Assembly: GCF_012972705.2 (NCBI RefSeq)
Contig: NZ_JABCSC020000001.1
Coordinates: 62,001-126,000 of the forward strand
Direction: 5' to 3'
Length of the DNA stretch: 64,000 nucleotides
Source of the DNA: Uliginosibacterium aquaticum
GTDB lineage: Bacteria; Pseudomonadota; Gammaproteobacteria; Burkholderiales; Rhodocyclaceae
Both the position numbers and the translations under genes were made by a program. Position 1 is the stretch's first letter; every line of letters begins with the position of its first letter. Shown here piece by piece: positions 8,177-47,704 of this stretch. The notes under the pieces were generated by a model. It searched no databases, had not been told where the DNA came from, and saw nothing but the letters and a program-made list of their open reading frames with translations.

Positions 8177-9241
8177 TTACTTGACCTGCTGGGCCAGTGC
8201 GCCGCTCTTGTAGGCCGCGGCGATCTTGTCCAGCGCGATCGGGCGGATCTTGCTGGCCTGACCGGCGCAACCGAAAGCTTCCATGCGTGCCTTGACGATG
8301 GCCTGGGCGGCGGCACGGGCCGGCTTGAGGTAGTCGCGCGGGTCGAACTTGGAGGGGTTCTCGAACAGGTACTTGCGGACGGCGGCAGTCATGGCCAGGC
8401 GGATGTCGGTGTCGATGTTCACCTTGCGCACGCCGTACTTGATGCCCTGCACGATTTCCTCGACCGGCACGCCGTAGGTTTCGCCGATGTCACCGCCGAA
8501 CTGGCGGATGATGGCCAACAACTCTTGCGGCACCGAGGAAGAACCGTGCATCACCAGGTGGGTGTTGGGCAGGCGCTCGTGGATCTTCTTGATCAGGTCG
8601 ATGGCAAGGATGTCGCCAGTGGGCTTGCGGGTGAACTTGTAGGCGCCGTGGCTGGTGCCGATGGCAATCGCCAGCGCGTCACACTGGGTGCGCTTGACGA
8701 AGTCGACGGCCTGATCCGGATCGGTCAGCATGGCGCTGTGATCCAGCTTGCCTTCGGCGCCGATGCCGTCTTCTTCACCGGCCATGCCGGTTTCCAGCGA
8801 GCCGAGGCAGCCCAGTTCAGCCTCCACCGAAACGCCGATGGCGTGCGAGAACTTCACCACTTCGCGGCTGACTTCGACGTTGTATTCATAGGAGGACGGG
8901 GTCTTGCCGTCTTCCAGCAGGGAGCCGTCCATCATCACCGAGGAAAAGCCACTCTTGATCGCGGCCATACACACGGCCGGGCTCTGGCCGTGATCCTGGT
9001 GCATGACGACCGGGATGTGCGGATAGGCTTCGACGGCGGCGTCGATCAGGTGGCGCAGGAAAGCTTCACCGGCGTATTTGCGGGCGCCGGCCGAGGCCTG
9101 CATGATCACCGGGCTGTCTAGCTCATTGGCGGCTTCCATGATGGCGGTGACCTGTTCAAGGTTATTTACGTTGAACGCGGGCAGGCCGTAGCTGAATTCG
9201 GCTGCGTGGTCGAGCAGCTGGCGCATGGAAACGAGAGCCAT
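8177..9241 (-). CDS. fba: Fructose-bisphosphate aldolase, class II
   Basis: This zinc-dependent aldolase (354 residues) interconverts fructose 1,6-bisphosphate with two triose phosphates. It has the zinc-binding HQDHGQ motif, the GSLLEDG segment, a GTSHGAYKF block and the phosphate-binding [10 protein letters not shown] region, typical of the class IIB/CbbA form. It is the last gene of the carbon block tkt-gap-pgk-pyk-fba on the minus strand but is separated from pyk by a terminator, so it probably has its own promoter. The ATG at 9241 starts the conserved [15 protein letters not shown]. Confidence 0.96.
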
Positions 9242-9442: not shown

Positions 9443-10870
9443 TCAGCCGCCGATCTTGACGATCTTCAGGCTGTTGGTACCGCCGGACTGGCCCAGCGGT
9501 TCGCCCACGGTCACGACCACGATGTCACCCGGCTGCACCAGTTTGTGCTTGATCAGGGTGAGTTCGGCTTCGTGCAGCAGGTGTTCGCTGCTGTCGGTGA
9601 TGCGCGGCATGGCGATCGGGAACACGCCACGGTACAGCGCGGTCTTGCCGACGGTGTCTTGCTGCGAGGTCAGGGCGTAGATCGGGGTGCCCGAGTGCAT
9701 ACGGCTCATCCACAGCGCAGTGGAGCCCGATTCGGTGAGGGCAACGATGGCCTTGGCGCCGAGGTGGTGGGCCGAGAACAGGGCGGCCATGGCGATCGAC
9801 TGGTCGATGCGGGTGAAGTTGCGGTTCAGGAAGTCCTGGTCCAGGGTGTTCGGGTAGGACTTCTCGGCTTCTTCACAGACGCGGGCCATGGTTTCGACCA
9901 CTTCAACCGGATACTTGCCGGCAGCGGTTTCGGCCGACAGCATCACGGCATCGGTGCCATCCAGCACGGCGTTGGCCACGTCGGACACTTCGGCGCGGGT
10001 CGGCACCGGGCTGGAGATCATCGACTCCATCATCTGGGTCGCGGTGATGGCCAGCTTGTTCATCTCGCGCGCCAGCTTGATCATCTTCTTCTGCAGGGCC
10101 GGCACGGCGGCTTCGCCGACTTCCACAGCCAGGTCACCACGGGCGACCATCAGGCCGTCAGAGGCTTCGAGGATTTCGCGCAGGGTCTGCGGTTCAACCG
10201 CTTCGGTACGCTCGATCTTGGCGATGGTCAGGGCATTGGAACCAGCAGCGCGCAGCAGGGTGCGGGCCATGTACATGTCAGCCGCGTTCTTCGGGAAGGA
10301 CACGGCCACGTACTCGATGCCGATGGCGGCAGCGGTCTTGAGGTCTTCCATGTCCTTGGCGGTCAGCGCCGGAGCGGTCAGGCCGCCACCCTTCTGGTTG
10401 ATGCCCTTGTTGTTGGACAGCTCGCCGCCATGACGCACGCGGGTGTGGATCTCGGCACCGATGACCTTTTCCACGTCCAGCACGATGGCGCCGTCGTTCA
10501 GCAGCAGGATGGTGCCCGGCTTCACGTCGTTGGGCAGTTCCTTGTAGTCGAGGCCGACGCGCTCGTCGTTGCCCAGTTCGCATTCAGCGTCGAGGATGAA
10601 GCTCTGACCCTTCTCGAGGAAGGTCTTGCCGTTGGCGAACTTGCCGACGCGAATCTTCGGGCCTTGCAGGTCGGCGAGGATCGCCACCGGCTTGCCGACG
10701 CGCTTGGCGGCTTCGCGCACCACGTTGGCGCGGTTCATGTGATCTTCGGCCTTGCCGTGCGAGAAGTTCAGGCGCACGACGTCGACACCGGCGCGGATCA
10801 TGCGCTCGAGGGTTTCGGCATCATTGGAGGACGGGCCGAGGGTGGCGACGATCTTGGTGTGACGTTGCAT
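9443..10870 (-). CDS. pyk: Pyruvate kinase
   Basis: This 475-residue enzyme transfers phosphate from phosphoenolpyruvate to ADP in glycolysis. Visible hallmarks are TKIVATLGPSS at the N terminus, RLNFSHG, the active-site segment TIAKIERTEAV, VARGDLAVE, and TATQMMESMI. The ATG at 10870 is preceded by GAAGGAG at good spacing and gives the normal family N terminus. The frame extends in phase a further 46 codons to an ATG at 11008, encoding an Ala/Lys/Pro-rich stretch without a clear ribosome-binding site; this longer form is possible but less likely. It sits in the tkt-gap-pgk-pyk-fba block. Confidence 0.95.
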   Translation of the reverse strand: MQRHTKIVATLGPSSNDAETLERMIRAGVDVVRLNFSHGKAEDHMNRANVVREAAKRVGKPVAILADLQGPKIRVGKFANGKTFLEKGQSFILDAECELGNDERVGLDYKELPNDVKPGTILLLNDGAIVLDVEKVIGAEIHTRVRHGGELSNNKGINQKGGGLTAPALTAKDMEDLKTAAAIGIEYVAVSFPKNAADMYMARTLLRAAGSNALTIAKIERTEAVEPQTLREILEASDGLMVARGDLAVEVGEAAVPALQKKMIKLAREMNKLAITATQMMESMISSPVPTRAEVSDVANAVLDGTDAVMLSAETAAGKYPVEVVETMARVCEEAEKSYPNTLDQDFLNRNFTRIDQSIAMAALFSAHHLGAKAIVALTESGSTALWMSRMHSGTPIYALTSQQDTVGKTALYRGVFPIAMPRITDSSEHLLHEAELTLIKHKLVQPGDIVVVTVGEPLGQSGGTNSLKIVKIGG

Positions 10871-11049
10871 GGAGACTCCTTCGTTGGAAGTGTTTTGGAG
10901 AGAGGGGGATTGAGTGGCGGACTTTGCCTGGGCAGCCTTGGGCGCAGCTTTACGCGGCGCGGCGGGTTTCTTTGCAGGCTTGGCAGCCGGAGTATCTTGT
11001 TTGCTCATCGGGAGGCGGAGTTTAGCGGTAGTAGTGAATTCCGGGCGGT

Positions 11050-12231
11050 TCAGTGTGCGCGTTGCTGCAGGGCTTCAATGGCTGGCAGGGTCTTGCCTTC
11101 GAGAAACTCGAGGAAAGCACTGCCGGCGGTCGAGATGTAACCGATCTGTTCTGCGATGCCGAATTTGGCGATGGCGGCGATGGTGTCGCCACCACCTGCC
11201 AGACTCATGGCCGAGGATTCTGAAATCGCCTTGCCCAGCATGCGGGTGCCTTCGGCGAAGGCGTCGAATTCGAAGACGCCGAGCGGTCCGTTCCACACGA
11301 TGCTACGGGCAGTCTGCAATTGTGCCGTGAGTTTTCCAGCGGTTTCCGGACCAATATCAAGAATCATGTCTTCATCGCCTACTTCGGCGACGCTTTTGAT
11401 CGAAATTTCGGCGTGCGGCGAGAATTCCCGCGCCACCACCACGTCCACCGGCAGGGGCACTGCTGCGCCACGTGCGACCATCTTGTCGAGAATGCGCCGG
11501 GCGTCAGGCACCAGATCGGTCTCCACCAGCGAGCGGCCGATCGGGTAACCGGCCGCCAGCAGGAAGGTATTGGCGATCCCGCCGCCAAGGATCAGCTGAT
11601 CGGCCTTGTCGGCCAAGCTATCAAGGATGGCGAGCTTGGTGGATACCTTGGAGCCACCGACAATCGCCAGCAAGGGGCGTTCGGGCGTTTCCAGGGCTCT
11701 GCTCAGAGCTTCCAGCTCGGCGGCCAGCAATGGCCCGGCACAGGCGATCGGCGCAGCCAGCGGCAGGGCGTGGGTGGTGCATTCGGCGCGGTGGGCGGTG
11801 GCGAAAGAATCGTTGACGTAAATGTCGCAGAGCTTCGCGAGGCGGGCGGCGAGTTCGGGGCTGTCCTTCTTTTCGCCTTTGTTGAGGCGGCAGTTTTCGA
11901 GTAGCACGATCTGGCCGGGTTCGAGTTCAAAATCTCCGCCGATCCAGTTCGGAACCAGCGGTACAGGGCGGCCCAGCAAGCGGCTCAGTTGCGTAGCGAT
12001 TGGCGCCAGTGAGTCTTGAGGATTCGGCTCGCCTTCGGTGGGGCGGCCCAGGTGCGAGGTGACCATCACCGCTGCGCCCTGAGCGAGGGCTATCTGAAGC
12101 GCCGGTAGTGCGCTGTGGATGCGTGTGTCGTCACCGATGTTGCCGCTGTCGTCGAGCGGCACATTGAGGTCGGCACGGATGAACACGCGCTTGCCGGCGA
12201 GATCGAGATCGCTGAGTTTCCGGAATTGCAT
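11050..12231 (-). CDS. pgk: Phosphoglycerate kinase
   Basis: This 393-residue cytosolic enzyme makes ATP from 1,3-bisphosphoglycerate in glycolysis, or runs in reverse in gluconeogenesis or the Calvin cycle. It shows the two-domain pattern: [15 protein letters not shown] and the [11 protein letters not shown] segment in the N-terminal half, and [17 protein letters not shown] and [10 protein letters not shown] in the C-terminal half. The ATG at 12231 has GGGAGG six bases upstream; a TTG six bases earlier is in frame but less suitable. It lies between gap and pyk on the same strand. Confidence 0.96.
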
Positions 12232-12259
12232 GGCCAACCTCCCGGCGGGAGCCGAAAAA

Positions 12260-12294: not shown

Positions 12295-13311
<1,017 letters not shown>

Positions 13312-13434: not shown

Positions 13435-15441
13435 CTAAACCAGACTCTTGATGGCTTCGACCACCTTCTCGGGCGTGAAGCCGAAGTGCTTGAACAGCGT
13501 ACCGCCAGGGCCGGATTCACCGAAACGGTCCATGCCGATGACAACGCCTTCCAGCCCGACATATTTGTACCAGCCATCCGACACACCGGCTTCGATCGCC
13601 ACGCGTGGCAAACCCTTGCCGAGCACGGCTGCCTTGTAGGCGGCGTCCTGTTGATCGAACAACCGATTGCAAGGCATCGACACCACGCGCACCGGCACAC
13701 CGGCTTCCGCCAGCTGCTTCTGCGCGGCCAGCGCCACGCCCACTTCGGAGCCGGTGGCGATGATCACGGCCTTGGCGTCGGCGGCATCAACCAGCACGTA
13801 GCCACCCTTGCGGATATCGGCCAGTTGCTGGGCGCTGCGGGCGCTGAAAGGCAGGTTCTGACGCGTCAGGGCCAGCACGGTCGGGCCATCGGCGCGCTCG
13901 ATGCCGTGAATCCAGGCCACCGAGGCTTCAGTGGTGTCGGCTGGGCGCCAGACATTCAGGTTCGGGATCAGGCGCAGCGAAGCTGTGTGCTCCACCGGCT
14001 GGTGGGTCGGGCCGTCTTCGCCCACGCCGATCGAGTCGTGCGTGAACACCATGACCTGGCGGATGTGCATCAGCGCGGCCATGCGGATCGCGCTGCGGCA
14101 GTAGTCCGAGAACACCAGGAAGGTGGCGGTGTAGGGGATGAAGCCGCCATGCAGCGCAATGCCGTTGGCAATCGCCACTTCGGCGAACTCGCGCACGCCG
14201 TAGTTGATGTAGTTGGCGTCATTCACGCCCGGCAGGAAATCCTTGGTGCCAGACCAGTGCGTGAGGTTCGAGCCAGCCAGATCGGCCGAGCCGCCGAGCA
14301 GCTCGGGCAGACTCGGTGCCAGCGCTTCGATGGCGTTCTGCGAAGCCTTGCGGGTGGCGATGGTTTCGGCCTTGGCCTGAACCTTTTCGATCAGTGCGTC
14401 AGCGGCAGTCTTGAAGCCGGCCGGCAGTTCACCAGCAACGCGGCGCTTGAGTTCAGCGGCCAGTTCCGGATGTGCAGCGGCGTAGGCGGCGAATAGAGCA
14501 TTCCACTCACCTTCAGCCTTGGCGCCAGCGGCCTTGGCATCCCACTGGGCGTAGATGTCAGCCGGCACTTCGAAGGCCGGATGCGGCCAGTTGATGGCCT
14601 TGCGCACGCCTTCAATTTCAGCTGCGCCGAGCGGGGCGCCGTGTGCGTCGCAAGTGCCGGCCTTGGTCGGGGCGCCGGCGCCGATGGTGGTGCGGCAGAT
14701 GATCAGGGCCGGGCGTTCGCTGTCGGCCTTGGCCTCTTCGGTCGCGGCCTGCAGGGCGGCAGCGTCATGGCCGTTGATCGGGCCGATCACTTGCCAGCCA
14801 TAGGCTTCAAAGCGCTTCTTGGTGTCGTCGGCAAACCAGCCGCCGACTTCGCCGTCAATGGAGATGTTGTTGTCGTCGTAATAAGCGGTGAGCTTGCCGA
14901 GCTTCCACAGGCCGGCGAGCGAGGCGACTTCGTGGCTGATGCCTTCCATCAGGCAGCCATCGCCGAGGAAGGTCCAGGTGCGGTGGTCGACGACGTCAAA
15001 GCCCGGGCGGTTGAAGCTGGCGGCGAGCATCTTCTCGGCCAGCGCGAAACCGACGGCATTGGCGATGCCCTGACCGAGCGGGCCGGTGGTGGTCTCGACG
15101 CCCGGGGTGTAATGCACTTCAGGATGGCCAGGCGTCTTGGAACCGAGCTGGCGGAATTTTTTCAGCTCATCGAGCGGCAGGTCGTAGCCCGTGAGATGCA
15201 GCAGCGCATACAGCAGCATCGAGCCGTGGCCGTTGGAGAGCACGAAACGATCGCGGTTGCTCCAGCCCGGGTTGGCCGGGTTGTGGCGCAGATGGCGGCG
15301 CCACACCACTTCGGCGATCTCGGCCATGCCCATGGGCGCGCCGGGGTGGCCTGAATTGGCTTGCTGGACGGCATCCATGGCCAGCGCACGGATGGCGCCG
15401 GTAAGGGGAGTGAATTCGATGCTGGGGGTGCGGGTGCTCAT
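13435..15441 (-). CDS. tkt: Transketolase
   Basis: This 668-residue thiamine diphosphate enzyme moves two-carbon units in the pentose phosphate (or Calvin) pathway. It has the N-terminal [11 protein letters not shown] block, the thiamine-diphosphate motif beginning [12 protein letters not shown] and ending near NNISIDG, and C-terminal [14 protein letters not shown] and RFGESGP segments. The ATG at 15441 ([10 protein letters not shown]) is the likely start; an upstream in-frame start would add 24 atypical residues. It heads the tkt-gap-pgk-pyk block on the minus strand. Confidence 0.96.
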
Positions 15442-15604
15442 GTTGGATCTCGGCGGTGCGCCATCAGGGGTCGGGAACCTTGCATTATCTGACAAGCCCC
15501 GCTGCTTCGCCACCGGCGATTGATAGCCTTGAATTACGAATTTTCGTAGAAACGATAGCTGAGCCGGGGTGGGCTGGAATTGATGGAACTCAATCCGTTC
15601 GGGT

Positions 15605-16489
15605 TTACCCGGAATGTTGCGCTGCAGCGCGTTTCTCCAGCAAAGCCTTGATTCGCGGTAGCAAAATCACCTGTAGGCCCAGCTCCAGCATTGGGCCTGG
15701 CATGACCAGGGTGTTTGGGCGGGTCATCCAGCTGCCATGCAGTAGGGTGAGCAGTTCCGGGAAGTTGACGCCGGCCGGGTTGCGGAAACTCACCACCACC
15801 AGGGTTTCGTTGGGCAGTGGCACATCCTTGGCGGCGAAAGGGTTGGATGTATCGACGATCGGCACGCGCTGGAAGTTGATATGGGTGCGCGAGAATTGCG
15901 GCACGATGGTGTGCACGTAATCGTCCATGCGGCGCAGGATGGTGTCCTGCACGGCCGGCAGGCTGTGGCCACGCTCCTGCATGTCGCGCATCAGCTTCTG
16001 GATCCATTCCAGGTTGATGGTGGGTACCACGCCGATCAGGAGATCCACATGCCGCGCCACATCTACCTTGTCGGTCACCACGCCGCCGTGCAAGCCTTCG
16101 TAGAAGAGTAGCTCGCTATCCTCGGGCAAGGCTTCCCAGGGGGTGAAGCTGCCCGGTGGCAGGCCGCGGTGCAGGGCTTCTTCGGTGTCATGCAGATAGC
16201 GCCGGTTGAGGCCCTGGCCGGTTTCGGCATAACCGGCAAAGAGGGCTTCGAGCTCGTCGAAGAGATTGGCGGCGATTCCGAAATGACTCGGGCCGCGCTC
16301 GCCACGTAGCTCGGCAGCGAGGATCTTTTCCTGCATTTCGCTGCGTGAGTAGCGGTGAAAGGCATCGCCTTCCACGCAGGCGGCGCGGATGCCCTCGCGG
16401 CGGAAAATGTGGCCGAAGGTGCGCGAGATGGTGCTGGTGCCGGCACCGGAGGAGCCGGTTACGGCAATGATCGGATGACGAGCGCTCAT
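15605..16489 (-). CDS. prkB: Phosphoribulokinase (CbbP/PrkB type)
   Basis: This 294-residue kinase has the P-loop GSSGAGTS (residues 12-19), [32 protein letters not shown] and the THINFQRVP...DTSNPF region of proteobacterial phosphoribulokinase. The reaction would be ATP plus ribulose 5-phosphate to ribulose 1,5-bisphosphate. The sequence also closely resembles E. coli PrkB, a homologue in an organism without RuBisCO, so Calvin-cycle function is not proven. Its ATG at 16489 overlaps the stop of the upstream phosphatase by ATGA, indicating translational coupling. tkt and gap follow on the same strand. Confidence 0.88.
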
Positions 16490-17286
16490 TGACGATGAAC
16501 CTGCAGCCAGGCCAACCATTCGCCGTAGAGGCCGGGGTCCGCCGCCAGCACCACTGCGCGCTTGGGCAGCGGGGCCGCTTCCAGTGGGCCGCCATCCAGC
16601 ACGCCATACACGCCACCGGCTTCTTCAAGGATCAGGCGCCCGGCAGCGTAATCCCACAGGGCCTGGCCGCCGTGCAGGTAAACGTCCAGCCGGCCGGCTG
16701 CGACAAAGCACCACTCCAGCGCCGAGGAGCCGAAGTTGCGTTGCGAGTAATACGGTGGCGTCATGACCAGATTGGCCGCCAGCTTGTTCGGAATGCGTTT
16801 GAAGTCGATGCCGGCCACCGAAAAGGCCAGGCGTTTGGCAGGGGCGCGCAGCGGCAGGCGTTTGCCGTTGAGCCAGGCGCCGGCGCCCTTGGCGGCGTAG
16901 AAGGATTCGTCGGTGGTGGGGTTGTAGACCACTCCGAACTGGGTTTCGCCGCCCACCAGATAGGCAACGGAGACGGCGAAGAGCGGTACGCCGTTGGCAA
17001 AATTGGTGGTGCCGTCGATCGGATCGATGCACCACACGCCTTCCTGGCCGGCCTGCCAGCACTCGAGCTGCTGCTCGGGCGTCATCTCTTCGCCGATCAC
17101 CGGGGCATCGAGCACTTCCGGCAGGCGTTCAAGCAAGGCCTGCTGCGAGGCCAGATCGGCGGCGGTGACCGAGCTGCCGTCGTCCTTGAACTCACGGGCG
17201 GCACGCAGGAAGTGCGGCATGATGGCCTCGCGGGCCACATCGCGGACGACGGATTCCAGCGCACGGGCACGGGCAAGCAGAGGCAT
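16486..17286 (-). CDS. Inositol-monophosphatase family phosphatase
   Basis: This 266-residue protein is a Mg-dependent, lithium-type phosphatase. It has the three metal/substrate motifs of the family: GEE (about residue 65), DPIDGTTNF (about 87-95) and WDYAAGRLILEEAGG (about 210-225). Substrates in this family include inositol phosphates, PAP, histidinol phosphate and fructose 1,6-bisphosphate. The ATGA overlap with the phosphoribulokinase gene suggests a sugar-phosphate substrate, but that is inference. The ATG at 17286 begins MPLLARARALE. Confidence 0.85.
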   Translation of the reverse strand: MPLLARARALESVVRDVAREAIMPHFLRAAREFKDDGSSVTAADLASQQALLERLPEVLDAPVIGEEMTPEQQLECWQAGQEGVWCIDPIDGTTNFANGVPLFAVSVAYLVGGETQFGVVYNPTTDESFYAAKGAGAWLNGKRLPLRAPAKRLAFSVAGIDFKRIPNKLAANLVMTPPYYSQRNFGSSALEWCFVAAGRLDVYLHGGQALWDYAAGRLILEEAGGVYGVLDGGPLEAAPLPKRAVVLAADPGLYGEWLAWLQVHRQ

Positions 17287-17334
17287 GGCGGACTCTCGGG
17301 TGGATTCGGCGAGGCAGCCGGGGATGCCCGGCCA

Positions 17335-17340
17335 TATAAT
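17335..17340 (+). promoter_or_regulatory. Likely -10 element for rsmE
   Basis: A perfect TATAAT lies 40 bp before the rsmE start in the 94-bp divergent gap to the phosphatase gene. The -35 region is poor. Confidence 0.45.
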
Positions 17341-17380
17341 GTTCGATGCTCGCGCGTGCGAGCTGAACGATCATAGCACC

Positions 17381-18103
17381 ATGCCCCCACGCTTCCATTG
17401 CCCCCTGCCACTTGCTGCCGACCAGAGTCTGCGCCTGCCTGCCGAAGTGGCGCACCATGCTCTGCGCGTGCTGCGCCTGACTTATGGCGAGTCCATCGTG
17501 GTGTTCGATGGTGCGGGCACGGAGTATCTTGGCGAGCTGATCAAACTTGATGGTGAGGCGGCGGTGCGCCTCGACAGAAAGCTGGATGTGCAGCGTGAGG
17601 CGCCATTGGCGGTAACGCTGGTACAGGCGCTGGCGGTAGCCGACAAGATGGACTGGATCGTACAGAAAGCGGTCGAGCTCGGTGCGGTGGGCGTTCAGCC
17701 GGTGGATGCCGAGCGCTGTGTGCTGAAGCTTGCTGGCGATCGCGCTGGCAAGCGCATCGAGCATTGGCGGCAGGTGGCGGTTTCCGCCGCTGAGCAATGT
17801 GGGCGCAGTCATCTATGTGCGGTGGGTGAGCTGCAGAAACTTCCGGTTTGGCTGGCACAGCCGATGGCCGGTGAGCGCTGGATTCTGGCGCCGGAGGGCG
17901 GTACTAAGCTGTCGGCCATGCCGCGCCCGACGGAGCCTGTGAGCCTTCTGATCGGCCCGGAAGGGGGCTGGAGTGACAAGGAGCTGGCGGCTGCGCAGGC
18001 CGCCGGTTGCACGCCCGTAAGTCTCGGACCGCGCGTGCTGCGTACCGAGACGGCGGGTCTGGCGGCGCTGGCCGCGATGATGGCCCTGTGGGGCGACTAT
18101 TGA
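17381..18103 (+). CDS. rsmE: 16S rRNA m3U1498 methyltransferase RsmE
   Basis: This 240-residue SPOUT-class enzyme methylates U1498 of 16S rRNA. It has the N-terminal PUA-like region with HHALRVLRL, the DWIVQKAVELG block, and the C-terminal knot sequences LLIGPEGGWSDKE and LGPRVLRTETAGLAAL. The ATG at 17381 gives the usual length; the frame is open further upstream but that part overlaps the divergent gene. It is followed one base later by argA. Confidence 0.93.
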   Translation: MPPRFHCPLPLAADQSLRLPAEVAHHALRVLRLTYGESIVVFDGAGTEYLGELIKLDGEAAVRLDRKLDVQREAPLAVTLVQALAVADKMDWIVQKAVELGAVGVQPVDAERCVLKLAGDRAGKRIEHWRQVAVSAAEQCGRSHLCAVGELQKLPVWLAQPMAGERWILAPEGGTKLSAMPRPTEPVSLLIGPEGGWSDKELAAAQAAGCTPVSLGPRVLRTETAGLAALAAMMALWGDY

Positions 18104-18104
18104 G

Positions 18105-19493
18105 ATGGACAGAATGAATCAGGAAAACCGGGTACTCAGCGCCAACCTCTCCGCCGCGGTGCGCATGGGCGATGACGAAGCCATTCGTTTCGTCGACTGG
18201 GTGCGCGGCGCCGCGCCTTACTTCCATGCCTTCCGTGGCAAGACCTTCGTGCTCGCCTTTGGCGGTGAAGTGGCGCAGGGCGAGCTGATGGAAGACTTGT
18301 GTCACGACTGCAATCTGCTGGCCGCGCTGGGCGTGCGTCTGGTGCTGGTGCATGGCGCGCGGCCGCAGATCGAGGCCGAACTGGCCCGGCGCGGGCAGGA
18401 GTCGCGTTATCACAAGGGCTTGCGCATCACCGACGAAGCCGGGCTGGAGTGCGTCAAGGCGGCGGTCGGCGTCACTCGCATCAATATCGAGGCGGCCTTG
18501 TCGCAAGGCTTGCCGAATACGCCCATGGCCGGCGCCTACATGCGCGTGACTGGCGGCAACTTCATTACCGCGCGGCCGATTGGTGTCGTTGACGGAGTCG
18601 ACTATCAATATACCGGCACCGTGCGGCGCGTGATTGCCGAGGAAATCAAGGCCGATCTGGATCAGCAGAACGTGGTGCTGATTTCCAACCTCGGCGTGTC
18701 ACCCTCCGGCGAAATCTTCAACCTCGTGATGGAAGAAGTAGCCGAAGCGGTGGCGATTGCCCTGCAGGCCGAAAAGCTGATCTACCTGTGCGATGCGCCG
18801 GGCTTGCTGGATGAAGAAGGTCGCCTGATCGAGGCCATCACCGCCGAAGAGGCCGAGCGCAAGCTCAATGCTGGCGTCGGTCTCACCGAGGACCTGCACC
18901 TCTTCCTGCCGCGCGCCATCAAGGCTGTGCGGCGCGGCGTGGCACGTGCCCACCTGATCGATCGCGACAAGGACGGCGGGCTGCTGCTGGAGTTCTTCAC
19001 CCGTCAGGGTGTGGGCACCATGGTCAGCCGTGAGCCCTTGCATCGCCTGCGCGACGCGACCATCGACGATGTGGCCACCCTGCTGCAGTTGCTCGGCCCG
19101 CTCGAAGCCGATGGCACCCTGGTACGGCGCGGCCGCGAGCTGATCGAGATGGAGATCGATCGTTTCGTGCTCGCCGAGCACGATGGTGTGGTGGTCGGTT
19201 GCGCTGCGTTGTATCCCTTCCCTGAAGATGGCATGGCCGAAATGGCCTGCCTCGCAGTGACCAGCGAATTCCGTCGCGCCGGTCTCGGTGAGCGCCTGAT
19301 GCAGCACATCACCGAGCGCGCGCGTAGTGCTGGCTACAGGGAGCTCTTCGTGCTCACTACACGCACCCAGCACTGGTTCCGCGAGCGGGGCTTCCGAGAG
19401 GCCGGGCCGGAGGAGCTGCCCGAGCGCAAGCGCGATCTGTACAACTTCCAGCGGCGCTCCAAGATTTTCATCAAGTCCCTGCTGCCGGGCTGA
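18105..19493 (+). CDS. argA: N-acetylglutamate synthase
   Basis: This 462-residue enzyme makes N-acetylglutamate, the first step of arginine synthesis. An amino-acid-kinase domain (about 35-300, with LVLVHGARPQI and a YLCDAPGLLDEEG segment) is followed by a GNAT acetyltransferase domain (about 310-460, with MACLAVTSEFRRAGLGERLM and TTRTQHWFRERGF). The ATG at 18105 follows the rsmE stop by one base; an ATG nine bases later is also possible. Feedback inhibition by arginine at the kinase-like domain is known for the family. Confidence 0.95.
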   Translation: MDRMNQENRVLSANLSAAVRMGDDEAIRFVDWVRGAAPYFHAFRGKTFVLAFGGEVAQGELMEDLCHDCNLLAALGVRLVLVHGARPQIEAELARRGQESRYHKGLRITDEAGLECVKAAVGVTRINIEAALSQGLPNTPMAGAYMRVTGGNFITARPIGVVDGVDYQYTGTVRRVIAEEIKADLDQQNVVLISNLGVSPSGEIFNLVMEEVAEAVAIALQAEKLIYLCDAPGLLDEEGRLIEAITAEEAERKLNAGVGLTEDLHLFLPRAIKAVRRGVARAHLIDRDKDGGLLLEFFTRQGVGTMVSREPLHRLRDATIDDVATLLQLLGPLEADGTLVRRGRELIEMEIDRFVLAEHDGVVVGCAALYPFPEDGMAEMACLAVTSEFRRAGLGERLMQHITERARSAGYRELFVLTTRTQHWFRERGFREAGPEELPERKRDLYNFQRRSKIFIKSLLPG

Positions 19494-31848: not shown

Positions 31849-31858
31849 TCAGTCCCTT

Positions 31859-31957
31859 CCGAGGAGCGCTGCGAGACTGCCGGGTTTTTCCCGCAATCCC
31901 AGGCTCGGAACCTGCCGCCTCTCTTTGGCGCAGGCCAGATTCAACGGCGCTCACCGC
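31859..31957 (+). ncRNA. S-adenosylhomocysteine (SAH) riboswitch upstream of metH
   Basis: The leader has the conserved SAH aptamer core: CCGAGGAGCGCTGC at the 5' side, CCAGGCTCGG in the middle and AACGGCGCTCACC at the 3' side. CCGAG (31859-31863) pairs with CTCGG (31914-31918), and GAGCGC (31864-31869) pairs with GCGCTC (31947-31952) as the second helix or pseudoknot. SAH riboswitches turn on SAH recycling genes when SAH builds up, which fits methionine synthase downstream. Confidence 0.92.
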
Positions 31958-31990
31958 TTCGTGCAGAACTCGTGCGGATTGCCGGTGAGC
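31949..31990 (+). promoter_or_regulatory. Candidate expression platform of the SAH riboswitch
   Basis: GCTCACCG (31949-31956) can pair perfectly with CGGTGAGC (31983-31990). This uses the same bases as the ligand-stabilised helix, so the two structures exclude each other. A further 7-bp hairpin (32023-32037) sits directly before the GGAGAG ribosome-binding site at 32039-32044. No T-tract is seen, so control may be at translation or Rho-dependent. Confidence 0.55.
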
Positions 31991-32050: not shown

Positions 32051-35752
<3,702 letters not shown>

Positions 35753-42150: not shown

Positions 42151-42206
42151 GAATATCCATGTTTTGCAATTTATAATTCTACTTATTGGAATACAGAGAG
42201 CGCGGC

Positions 42207-43112
42207 ATGGACCGACTGTTGAGCATGGGTGTCTTCGTGGCGGTGGCTGAGGAAGAGAGCTTCGCGCGGGCAGCGCGGCGGCTGGCGATGTCGCCCCCTG
42301 CGGTGACGCGCACGATTGCCGCGCTGGAGGGGCATCTGGGCGTGAAGCTCCTCAACCGCACGACACGCTACGTGCGCGTGACCGAAGCCGGGCAGCGCTA
42401 TCTGGACGATGCGCGGCGCGTGATCGCGGCGGCGGATGAAGCGGACGAAGCCGCCGCCGGCGTGAATGCTGCGCCGCGTGGCCATGTGACGATCACGGCA
42501 CCCGTTTCATTCGGCCGCCTGCATGTGATGCCCTGCGTGGTGGAGTACCTCGCGCGCTATCCGGAAACCGAGGTAAACGCGCTGCTGCTGGACCGCGTGG
42601 TGAACCTGGTGGAAGAAGGCGTGGATGTTGGCGTACGCATCGGCAATCTGCCGGATGCGAGCTTCAAGGCGCTGCGCGTGGGGCAGATCCGGCGCGTGCT
42701 GTGTGCCGCGCCGGACTATCTCGCACAACACGACGAACCCACCGAGCCGCAACAGCTCGCGGCGCATCAGATCATCGCGGCAACGAGCGTGAGCCCCATG
42801 GTGGAATGGCGCTTCGGGCTGGAAGGCGCGGAACAAGCAGTGCGCATCCGCCCTCGCCTCACCGTGACGAACAATGACGCTGCCATCGCAGCCGCGGTGC
42901 GTGGTGCTGGCATCGCGCGCCTGCTCTCCTACCAGGTCGCCAGCGCAGTGGCGGAAGGCACGCTGCGGATCGTGATGGCCGCGCACGAGCCGCCGCCGAT
43001 GCCGATCCACGTGATCCACCGCGAGGGGCGGCAAGCCTCAGCGAAGGTGCGCGCGCTGGTGGATCTGCTGGTCGAACACTTGCGCGCAGAACGCAGCCTG
43101 CAGCCGGGTTGA
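42207..43112 (+). CDS. LysR family transcriptional regulator
   Basis: This 301-residue regulator has the N-terminal helix-turn-helix (FVAVAEEESFARAARRLAMS, PAVTRTIAALEGHLGVKLLNR) and a LysR substrate domain. It is transcribed away from the AhpD-like gene with a 142-bp AT-rich gap, the usual layout for a LysR regulator and its target. The ATG at 42207 is preferred over a TTG seven codons earlier. The inducer is unknown; the target genes suggest a redox or electrophile signal. Confidence 0.9.
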   Translation: MDRLLSMGVFVAVAEEESFARAARRLAMSPPAVTRTIAALEGHLGVKLLNRTTRYVRVTEAGQRYLDDARRVIAAADEADEAAAGVNAAPRGHVTITAPVSFGRLHVMPCVVEYLARYPETEVNALLLDRVVNLVEEGVDVGVRIGNLPDASFKALRVGQIRRVLCAAPDYLAQHDEPTEPQQLAAHQIIAATSVSPMVEWRFGLEGAEQAVRIRPRLTVTNNDAAIAAAVRGAGIARLLSYQVASAVAEGTLRIVMAAHEPPPMPIHVIHREGRQASAKVRALVDLLVEHLRAERSLQPG

Positions 43113-46312: not shown

Positions 46313-47704
46313 ATGCGCATCCCTCGCACGCCTCCCGCACTCAAGGATGTATTTGCTTCGCTGGCCCGGCCTGAGGATCTGGCGCTGATTGCTCAGCACG
46401 CCAATCCGCTGCCAGCAGGGCGCTATCTGCATCGGGAGGATCTGCGCTATCGCAGGCCGCCTGAGGGCCTGAATCATGAGCAGTGGTGGGCGGCGACCTG
46501 TCTTGGGCGGGCTCCCCTGCTGTATGAACTGCCCTTGCTGGATGTGCAGGGACAGCCGTTCCGGTTTGCGACCCCCCAGCCTGTCCTGATCGATCTGCAT
46601 CATATTGACCGGGATGCGGCCGGCCAGATCCGGGCGCCGGAGGGGGCGCCGATCCATGAGAACCGGCAGCCTTATCTGCTTGCTTCACTGATCGAGGAGG
46701 CCATTACTTCCAGTCAGCTGGAAGGTGCGGCTACCACCCGCAAGGTGGCCGCAGACATGCTGCGCGAAGGGCGTCAGCCGCGGGACCATGGCGAGCAGAT
46801 GATTTTCAACAATTACCGGGCGATGGAATACCTGCGGGAGCTGCGCGATGAGCCGATCACGCCACAGCGCATCCTGGACCTGCACCGCCTGCTGACGGTT
46901 GATACCCTGGAGAGCCCGGAGGATGCCGGGCGTTTGCGCAGTGGCAATGATGTGCAGGTCATCGATCAGCGCGATGGCAGCACGCTCCACACCCCGCCGG
47001 ATTTCAGCGAGCTGCCCGGCCGGCTGGAGGCGCTGTGCGCGTTTGCCAATGCTGACGAGAACAGCCAGCCCTTCGTGCATCCGGTTCTGCGCGCAATCCT
47101 GCTGCACTTCATGCTGGGCTATGACCATCCCTTTGTGGATGGCAACGGGCGCACGGCGCGCGCCTTGTTCTACTGGGCGATGGCGCGCAGCGGCTACTGG
47201 CTGATGGAGTTCGTGTCGATCTCGCACATCATCAAGCAGGCGCCCGCCCGGTATGTGCGAGCCTATCTGCATACCGAAACGGATCATGGCGACACCAGCT
47301 ACTTCCTGATTCATCAGCTGGGCACCATCCGCCGGGCGATCACGGCCCTGCACGCCTACATTGCGCGCAAGACCCGCGAGCAGCAGGATACCGAGCAGTT
47401 GCTGACGGACAAGTCTCCGTTTCTGCGCTTCCGCCTGAACCACCGGCAGATTTCCTTGCTGCGCAGCGCCCTGAAACACCCGTCTACGCCGCTGCGCATC
47501 GATGCGCACCAGAACACGCACGGCGTGGTCTATCAGACGGCACGTGCCGACTTGCTGGACCTGGAGTCTCTCGGGCTGTTCATCAAGGGCAAGCGCGGCA
47601 ATGCCTACGAGTTCTACCCCCAGCCTGAGTTGCTGACGCGGATCCAGAGCCTGGCTGACACCGGGCCGGCGGCAAAGACCTCTAACCCAGTCGCACCCGG
47701 TTGA
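46313..47704 (+). CDS. Fic family protein with own inhibitory helix
   Basis: This 463-residue protein has a Fic core with the complete active motif HPFVDGNGRTAR (about 272-283), predicting AMP transfer (or another nucleotide/phosphate transfer) onto target proteins. An inhibitory motif SSQLEG (about 133-138, S-x-x-x-E-G) lies N-terminal to the core, the class II arrangement where a glutamate blocks ATP until relieved. The C-terminal 100 residues look like a winged helix (LNHRQISLLRSALKH, TARADLLDLESLGLF) that could bind DNA. Two matching palindromes precede the gene. No separate antitoxin is seen. There is no clear ribosome-binding site. Its 3' end overlaps the convergent dehydrogenase gene by 23 bp. 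Confidence 0.9.
   Translation: MRIPRTPPALKDVFASLARPEDLALIAQHANPLPAGRYLHREDLRYRRPPEGLNHEQWWAATCLGRAPLLYELPLLDVQGQPFRFATPQPVLIDLHHIDRDAAGQIRAPEGAPIHENRQPYLLASLIEEAITSSQLEGAATTRKVAADMLREGRQPRDHGEQMIFNNYRAMEYLRELRDEPITPQRILDLHRLLTVDTLESPEDAGRLRSGNDVQVIDQRDGSTLHTPPDFSELPGRLEALCAFANADENSQPFVHPVLRAILLHFMLGYDHPFVDGNGRTARALFYWAMARSGYWLMEFVSISHIIKQAPARYVRAYLHTETDHGDTSYFLIHQLGTIRRAITALHAYIARKTREQQDTEQLLTDKSPFLRFRLNHRQISLLRSALKHPSTPLRIDAHQNTHGVVYQTARADLLDLESLGLFIKGKRGNAYEFYPQPELLTRIQSLADTGPAAKTSNPVAPG

Follow-up and report, generated by a model that had tools for sequence, protein, structure and literature searches.

Phosphoribulokinase (PRK) is taken as a diagnostic enzyme of the Calvin cycle. To our knowledge, Methylorubrum/Methylobacterium extorquens is without RuBisCO, and its PRK is said to have been the subject of a 2017 study by Ochsner et al. 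The available text of two papers reports that RuBP, the product of this PRK, acts on the activator QscR (PMC8388818, PMC11252147), and the first of them describes QscR as an R1,5P-responsive activator controlling one-carbon assimilation in M. extorquens and RuBP without RuBisCO as growth-inhibitory (PMC8388818). RuBP is likewise described, in the accessible part of its source, as an activator of CbbR (PMC4806589). For Methyloversatilis universalis FAM5, the available portion of one study places a second Prk in a cluster of the order Fbp3-Prk-Tk-Gapdh-Pgk-Pyk-Fba, with CbbR next in gene number, and gives it RPKM values of 381 and 484 versus 27 and 32 for the CbbP of the cbb operon (PMC5023235). 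This gene, METUNv1_700109, is expressed while the cbb genes are nearly silent (PMC5023235), which suggests that a second PRK of this type, compared with the one described here by gene order, may be used while the Calvin cycle is off. Furthermore, a survey of 24,706 genomes, in its available part, counts PRK in 4,284 and RuBisCO in 2,141 of them (PMC7895386), so that much of the PRK excess appears to be unexplained there.

The locus and its genome

The locus lies in a stretch of DNA of 64,000 nucleotides, referred to in its entirety as the window, in which an IMPase-family phosphatase gene and a PRK gene are joined by a 4-base ATGA overlap, the TGA stop of the former sharing bases with the ATG of the latter (Table 1). 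Both genes, which the first-pass annotation had placed here, are genuine, PRK by its Pfam, NCBIfam and structure matches and the IMPase by its Pfam match, and the overlap suggests that they would be translationally coupled and co-translated. The tkt, gap, pgk, pyk and fba genes all follow downstream of PRK on the same strand, tkt beginning about 160 bases beyond the PRK stop, and the Calvin-type order recognised by that annotation holds, PRK-tkt-gap-pgk-pyk-fba being the cbb cluster order of autotrophic relatives in the family. On the opposite flank lie an ORF that we take to be rsmE-like and argA. A scan of positions 15200-17600 returned 0 promoter-like sites and 1 terminator-like site against 1.6 expected by chance and is uninformative. 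Elsewhere in the window, an SAH riboswitch immediately precedes a B12-dependent methionine synthase gene, and a Fic/DOC-family protein is encoded.

Table 1. Features of the window, with coordinates counted from its first base
Feature	Position	Strand	Remarks
IMPase-family phosphatase (PF00459)	17286..16486	-	266 aa; Pfam E 9.8e-51
Phosphoribulokinase (PRK), bacterial class	ATG 16489 to stop 15605	-	294 aa; Pfam PRK E 1.2e-63; start taken as ATG 16489, mechanically called ORF begins 16519
ATGA overlap, IMPase stop TGA and PRK start ATG	16486..16489	-	
Transketolase (tkt)	13435..15441	-	probable start ATG 15441; longest ORF from GTG 15513
Glyceraldehyde-3-phosphate dehydrogenase (gap)	12295..13305	-	
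Phosphoglycerate kinase (pgk)	11050..12237	-	
Pyruvate kinase (pyk)	9443..11008	-	coordinates of longest ORF
Class II fructose-bisphosphate aldolase (fba)	8177..9241	-	FruBisAldo_II_B
RsmE-like 16S rRNA methyltransferase gene	17381..18103	+	start inferred; divergent from IMPase; locus marker in relatives
argA, N-acetylglutamate synthase	18105..19493	+	conserved flank
SAH riboswitch	31855-31959		
B12-dependent methionine synthase gene	32051-35752		
LysR-type regulator	42186-43112		
Fic/DOC-family protein	46313-47704		463 aa

The window belongs to assembly G000, of 4.09 Mb in 13 contigs and 99.78% complete. The absence of RuBisCO, noticed at first within the window, is confirmed for the whole assembly, in which the RuBisCO large subunit model PF00016 gave 0 matches while matching five control genomes. 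A complete cbb operon elsewhere, which the first-pass annotation had named as evidence against its reading, was sought in the genome and is absent: there is one PRK copy, and class I FBPase (PF00316) and GlpX (PF03320) both gave 0 matches in G000, unlike the 8 family relatives within the order sample, all of which have class I FBPase. Of the features of a Calvin cbb operon, G000 therefore has the PRK-tkt-gap-pgk-fba order and neither RuBisCO nor a cbbF-type FBPase, and it has the intact PRK without RuBisCO that characterises a QscR-type RuBP-signalling PRK. The single PFK match in G000 is a 570-aa protein with GGDD and PKTIDGDL motifs, which we take to be typical of the PPi-dependent, reversible type, and this apparently PPi-dependent enzyme could supply the FBPase reaction.

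PRK with and without RuBisCO among relatives

We surveyed 300 genomes of the order, with PRK in 131 and PF00016 in 136, and 385 genomes of the family, with PRK in 306 and PF00016 in 202; a RuBisCO match was called strong at an E-value of at most 1e-100, a threshold of our own that leaves 27 of the 136 order matches and 28 of the 202 family matches as weak. Among the 131 PRK-bearing order genomes RuBisCO is strong in 108, weaker in 8 and without a match in 15, and since genus g8 contributes five of these 15 and genus g25 another four, the occurrence of PRK without RuBisCO extends beyond the window's family. Within the window's genus, PRK is present in 7 of 8 genomes and RuBisCO in 0 of 8. By the upstream neighbour of their best-scoring PRKs, a selection biased towards window-like PRKs, 146 of the 306 PRK-bearing family genomes could be classified, giving 100 with an IMPase-linked PRK, 36 with an FBPase-linked PRK (11 with both) and 21 with neither within reach; genome labels, completeness and genus codes were transcribed by hand into the counting scripts. 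Fifty-seven of the 100 IMPase-linked genomes lack a PF00016 match and have a single PRK match, and 48 of them are at least 90% complete. Strong RuBisCO is found in 30, all of which carry two or more PRK matches, and a weak match in 13, of which 3 do so. The second PRK was fetched in 11 of the 30 strong-RuBisCO genomes and is FBPase-linked and distant in all 11. The two largest genera of mixed composition are g178 (10 genomes with RuBisCO, 7 without) and g175 (5 with, 2 weak, 9 without). As an extra PRK accompanies RuBisCO, the IMPase-linked PRK is most simply read as not serving RuBisCO. An intact PRK kept without RuBisCO, in an arrangement shared by many relatives, suggests that its product has some other purpose, perhaps that of a metabolic signal.

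Autotrophs of the window's family carry FBPase-PRK-tkt-gap-pgk-pyk-fba with RuBisCO nearby. The IMPase-PRK pair is found at the rsmE/argA locus in 100 of the 146 classified family genomes, and the arrangement of rsmE divergent from IMPase-PRK with tkt downstream recurs in Pseudothauera rhizosphaerae, Thauera aminoaromatica S2, Aromatoleum buckelii and Azoarcus sp. L1K30, as well as in several Azoarcus, Zoogloea and Rhodocyclaceae MAGs. Neither FBPase nor RuBisCO was found in the examined flanks of these loci. An identical locus in many genera implies that the pair is old and shared, and no accident of the window's own genome. A one-off fusion by deletion in that genome was considered as an origin of the pair and is ruled out on the same grounds.

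Spacing between the two genes varies. In the window's genus it is -4 in three genomes, -1 in two, and 11 and 40 bases in two, and the recurrence of the overlap in congeners (4-base in two, 1-base in two more) argues that it is no chance arrangement. Over 98 loci the spacing is at most 20 bases in 7, from 21 to 150 in 55 and over 150 in 36. The IMPase-PRK interval of 27 family loci from seven genera holds, on the PRK strand, a gene for a conserved protein of about 83 aa with no Pfam match (L173:2414-2662 for instance, with further examples in L186, L209, L219 and L240); a 28th locus is L171, whose IMPase is not in the examined sequence. This small-protein gene is absent from the window. In genus g167, 17 of 19 loci have no tkt in the examined downstream bases (762 bases in one of them) and PRK still stands behind IMPase, while among the remaining IMPase-linked loci, those with 1 kb or more of downstream sequence have tkt there in 75 of 78 cases. 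Retention of the g167 pair with no tkt nearby indicates that PRK is not simply riding a glycolytic operon. At the Zoogloea locus L109, two long opposite-strand ORFs appear to part PRK from tkt. A further family genome, G278, has no RuBisCO and keeps FBPase-PRK-tkt together, its IMPase lying at a distance of 8 kb, at the shared rsmE/argA locus. As a separate observation, Thauera sp. 28 (L114) has a RuBisCO-FBPase-PRK cbb cluster directly downstream of gap-pgk-pyk-fba, as if inserted beside an older locus.

A FastTree tree built from 254 distinct PRKs places every one of the 98 distinct IMPase-linked sequences in a single clade of 105 rows (support 83), a count that includes seven non-IMPase rows. 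Four of these (L163, L164, L032, L300) have no RuBisCO match, L032 (G278) and L300 (G338) retaining FBPase beside PRK, and three (L171, L182, L184) come from genomes with a weak RuBisCO match. A more careful tree of 92 rows, with four rows identical to lineage members added to the lineage by hand, recovers three well-supported RuBisCO-independent groups (95/94; 96/90, including the window's genus; 100/98), which sit in a 55-row group (98/81) together with 12 other PRKs, some from RuBisCO genomes. A single origin of the RuBisCO-free lineage, supported in the FastTree tree (83), is the best but a weakly supported arrangement there (47/41). The FBPase-linked second PRKs of double-PRK genomes form a separate group in the careful tree (96/94) and are thus not recent duplicates. 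No relative of the window PRK was found in viral contigs, and plasmids gave scattered similarity to cbb genes only. The two loci L163 and L164 (G368, G312), from one genus and with PRKs of the window's lineage and no RuBisCO match, lack both IMPase and tkt to a distance of 1.5 kb from PRK, and upstream of the L164 PRK there is an apparent response regulator and sensor kinase.

The kinase, the phosphatase and RuBP as a candidate signal

The window PRK passes the NCBIfam phosphoribulokinase model NF011997 (441.6 bits, cut-off 362), and structure 1a7j, presumably the Rhodobacter sphaeroides PRK, aligns without gaps to its residues 1-285 (E 4e-106). The resemblance to both CbbP and E. coli PrkB that had been remarked on is upheld, with identities of 62% to Hydrogenophilus CbbP and 56% to PrkB. 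The protein carries the P-loop and D42, H45, R49, Y98, H100, E131, K165, R168, D169 and R173, to all of which residues we assign, as an assumption, catalytic or ligand roles. Across the alignment of lineage PRKs, D42, H45, R49, Y98, E131, K165, R168, D169, R173 and R187 are kept in 105 of 105, and H100 and R186 in 104 each. Arg31, Arg234 and Arg257, which we take to form the NADH allosteric site, are nearly as constant, R31 and R257 being present in all 105 including the window's and R234 in 99; five of the 105, the window's among them, have Ser234 where Arg is near-invariant in other PRKs. The Ser234 of the window's genus suggests that PRK regulation, and possibly activity, may have changed there, and the PRKs of this genus have diverged at some conserved positions. 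Between the lineage and other PRKs, residue make-up differs strongly at 41 of 289 compared positions, for example 181 (Gln versus Thr) and 66. Crude dN/dS values, rough because dS is near saturation, are 0.08-0.22 among the five nearest congeners, with medians of 0.24 over 1008 pairs of RuBisCO-free members and 0.34 over 6794 pairs of other PRKs. Judged by residue conservation, the best explanation would be a catalytically intact PRK retained for long without RuBisCO.

The IMPase passes no NCBIfam subfamily cut-off. It scores 117.7 bits against the bifunctional FBPase/IMPase model NF009321, below the cut-off of 264, and 116.7/275.15, 121.6/228.8 and 98.2/332 bits (score/cut-off) against TIGR02067, TIGR01331 and NF008027, the curated models for Histidinol-phosphatase HisN, CysQ and SuhB-type IMPase. 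The one further gene that the IMPase query found in its own genome is distinct, a SuhB-like paralogue by sequence at 36% identity. At a threshold of about 1e-39, the IMPase orthologue is present in 171 of the 300 order genomes; 74 of these have no PRK, and another 34 genomes have PRK and no orthologue. An obligate partnership with PRK was considered and is ruled out by these 108 genomes with one and not the other. The orthologue is found in 65 of 94 order genomes without class I FBPase versus 106 of 206 others (Fisher p 0.006, kinship uncorrected), a weak association that would fit the IMPase as a possible replacement FBPase. The earlier suggestion of an FBP/SBP phosphatase is left unsupported by the NF009321 score, by the orthologue often occurring without PRK and by the apparent PPi dependence of the PFK. 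The task of the IMPase may be to remove RuBP, or the enzyme may be a housekeeping phosphatase with no connection to PRK.

We propose that the locus is an old cbb-type cluster whose PRK has persisted with no RuBisCO and most probably makes RuBP for use in regulation, a tentative reading to which we give a probability of about 0.42. In this model PRK would phosphorylate ribulose 5-phosphate in vivo to RuBP that does not feed CO2 fixation, RuBP at low abundance would serve regulation by signalling the state of pentose phosphates and ATP, and perhaps of NADH, and a putative LysR-type regulator of the CbbR/QscR kind would read it. The model is favoured by the CbbR and QscR precedents and by the expression of the M. 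universalis FAM5 PRK, and the "RuBP-related side route" of the first-pass annotation is still the foremost idea, now sharpened to possible RuBP signalling. Several points count against signalling. Since RuBP without RuBisCO is reported to inhibit growth, a cell making it all the time would pay a price. The Ser234 of the window's genus and the weak support for a single origin in the careful tree also weigh against the model, as does the search for a CbbR-like gene, which detected none in the window or at any IMPase-linked locus, within flanks of mostly 1.5-2.5 kb and up to 10 kb for the named ones. The LysR-type regulator of the window has no similarity to CbbR at E 1e-6. A CbbR-like LysR gene (L064:9333-10229, 45% identity) does occur in G166, a RuBisCO-free genome of another family, in the order IMPase, opposite-strand CbbR, fba, PRK, tkt, gap-pgk-pyk, and this is the only examined locus with such a gene beside IMPase and a RuBisCO-free PRK. 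A fuller module, in which PRK would write RuBP, the co-translated IMPase would erase it and a LysR-type regulator would read it, we hold to be distinctly unlikely; if true, RuBP would serve many non-RuBisCO heterotrophs as a second messenger for the state of central carbon metabolism.

Directly established here are the gene anatomy, the absence of RuBisCO and FBPase, the conservation of locus and active site, and the separateness from the Calvin PRK. The pair could be left over from a cbb operon that lost RuBisCO and cbbF, its PRK without a role and carried by the useful tkt-gap-pgk-pyk-fba genes. Such a history would fit the gene order, which is that of the autotrophs' cbb cluster with RuBisCO and FBPase taken out, as well as G278, which resembles an intermediate, and the changes at some conserved positions in the PRKs of the window's genus. 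We nevertheless consider it unlikely, as the active-site positions are kept throughout the lineage but for single exceptions at two of them, the dN/dS of PRK is low, and PRK stays with IMPase in the 17 g167 genomes with no tkt in the examined downstream bases. The RuBP might alternatively be consumed, the IMPase hydrolysing it or a related sugar bisphosphate made by PRK, or the IMPase might supply the missing FBPase/SBPase activity. Overlapping genes in 5 of 7 PRK-bearing genomes of the window's genus, retention of the pair where no tkt was found nearby, the lack of both class I FBPase and GlpX in G000 and the somewhat commoner orthologue where class I FBPase is absent would agree with this, but the failure of the IMPase at every subfamily cut-off, its separate distribution from PRK, the gaps longer than 150 bases at 36 of 98 loci, often occupied by a further small gene, and the PPi-dependent look of the PFK make such a shunt a rather doubtful proposition.

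A change of substrate, by which PRK would phosphorylate another sugar phosphate of the pentose phosphate pathway, would account for the 41 strongly differing positions; it is improbable with every examined ligand or catalytic position unchanged and the NCBIfam PRK equivalog passed. That RuBisCO lies outside the assembly and PRK is an ordinary Calvin-cycle enzyme is barely credible: a genome in 13 contigs leaves some room for a missed replicon, but its completeness is 99.78%, none of the 8 genomes of the genus has RuBisCO, and each of the 30 IMPase-linked genomes with strong RuBisCO has a further PRK match. RuBP signalling is the reading that we prefer over these. The PRK lineage occurs in genera amenable to laboratory work (Thauera, Azoarcus, Aromatoleum, Zoogloea), where some species also have a Calvin PRK and others do not, and a defined lineage with one conserved neighbour renders the role of a PRK without RuBisCO directly testable. 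Autotrophy, moreover, should not be called from PRK alone.

Comparison with known PRK systems

Calvin CbbP loci, such as those of Hydrogenophilus and Sulfuritalea, share with the window the PRK family and the downstream tkt-gap-pgk(-pyk)-fba order, whereas the window is without RuBisCO and FBPase, and the PRKs that stand beside FBPase in double-PRK genomes group separately in the tree. E. coli PrkB (b3355) is, like the window PRK, an orphan member of the same PRK family, but it stands in a yheU-prkB-yhfA-crp context and has Gln31, Ser187, His234 and His257, while the window PRK keeps the conserved residue at 31, 187 and 257. The METUNv1_700109 PRK of M. universalis FAM5 likewise lies outside the cbb operon, in a cluster of Tk-Gapdh-Pgk-Pyk-Fba genes, and unlike that of the window it has, as far as the available text and a comparison by gene order go, an annotated FBPase (Fbp3) upstream and CbbR adjacent (PMC5023235). 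M. extorquens shares a PRK without RuBisCO, with RuBP signalling reported there and proposed here from the genes; it belongs to a different bacterial class, whereas the locus described here has a glycolytic cluster beside IMPase, a reader of RuBP that is putative, and a host that may not be methylotrophic. We found no description of the IMPase-linked PRK lineage in the open-licence literature, and while orphan PRKs were already known, a widespread RuBisCO-independent, IMPase-linked lineage of them appears to be new.
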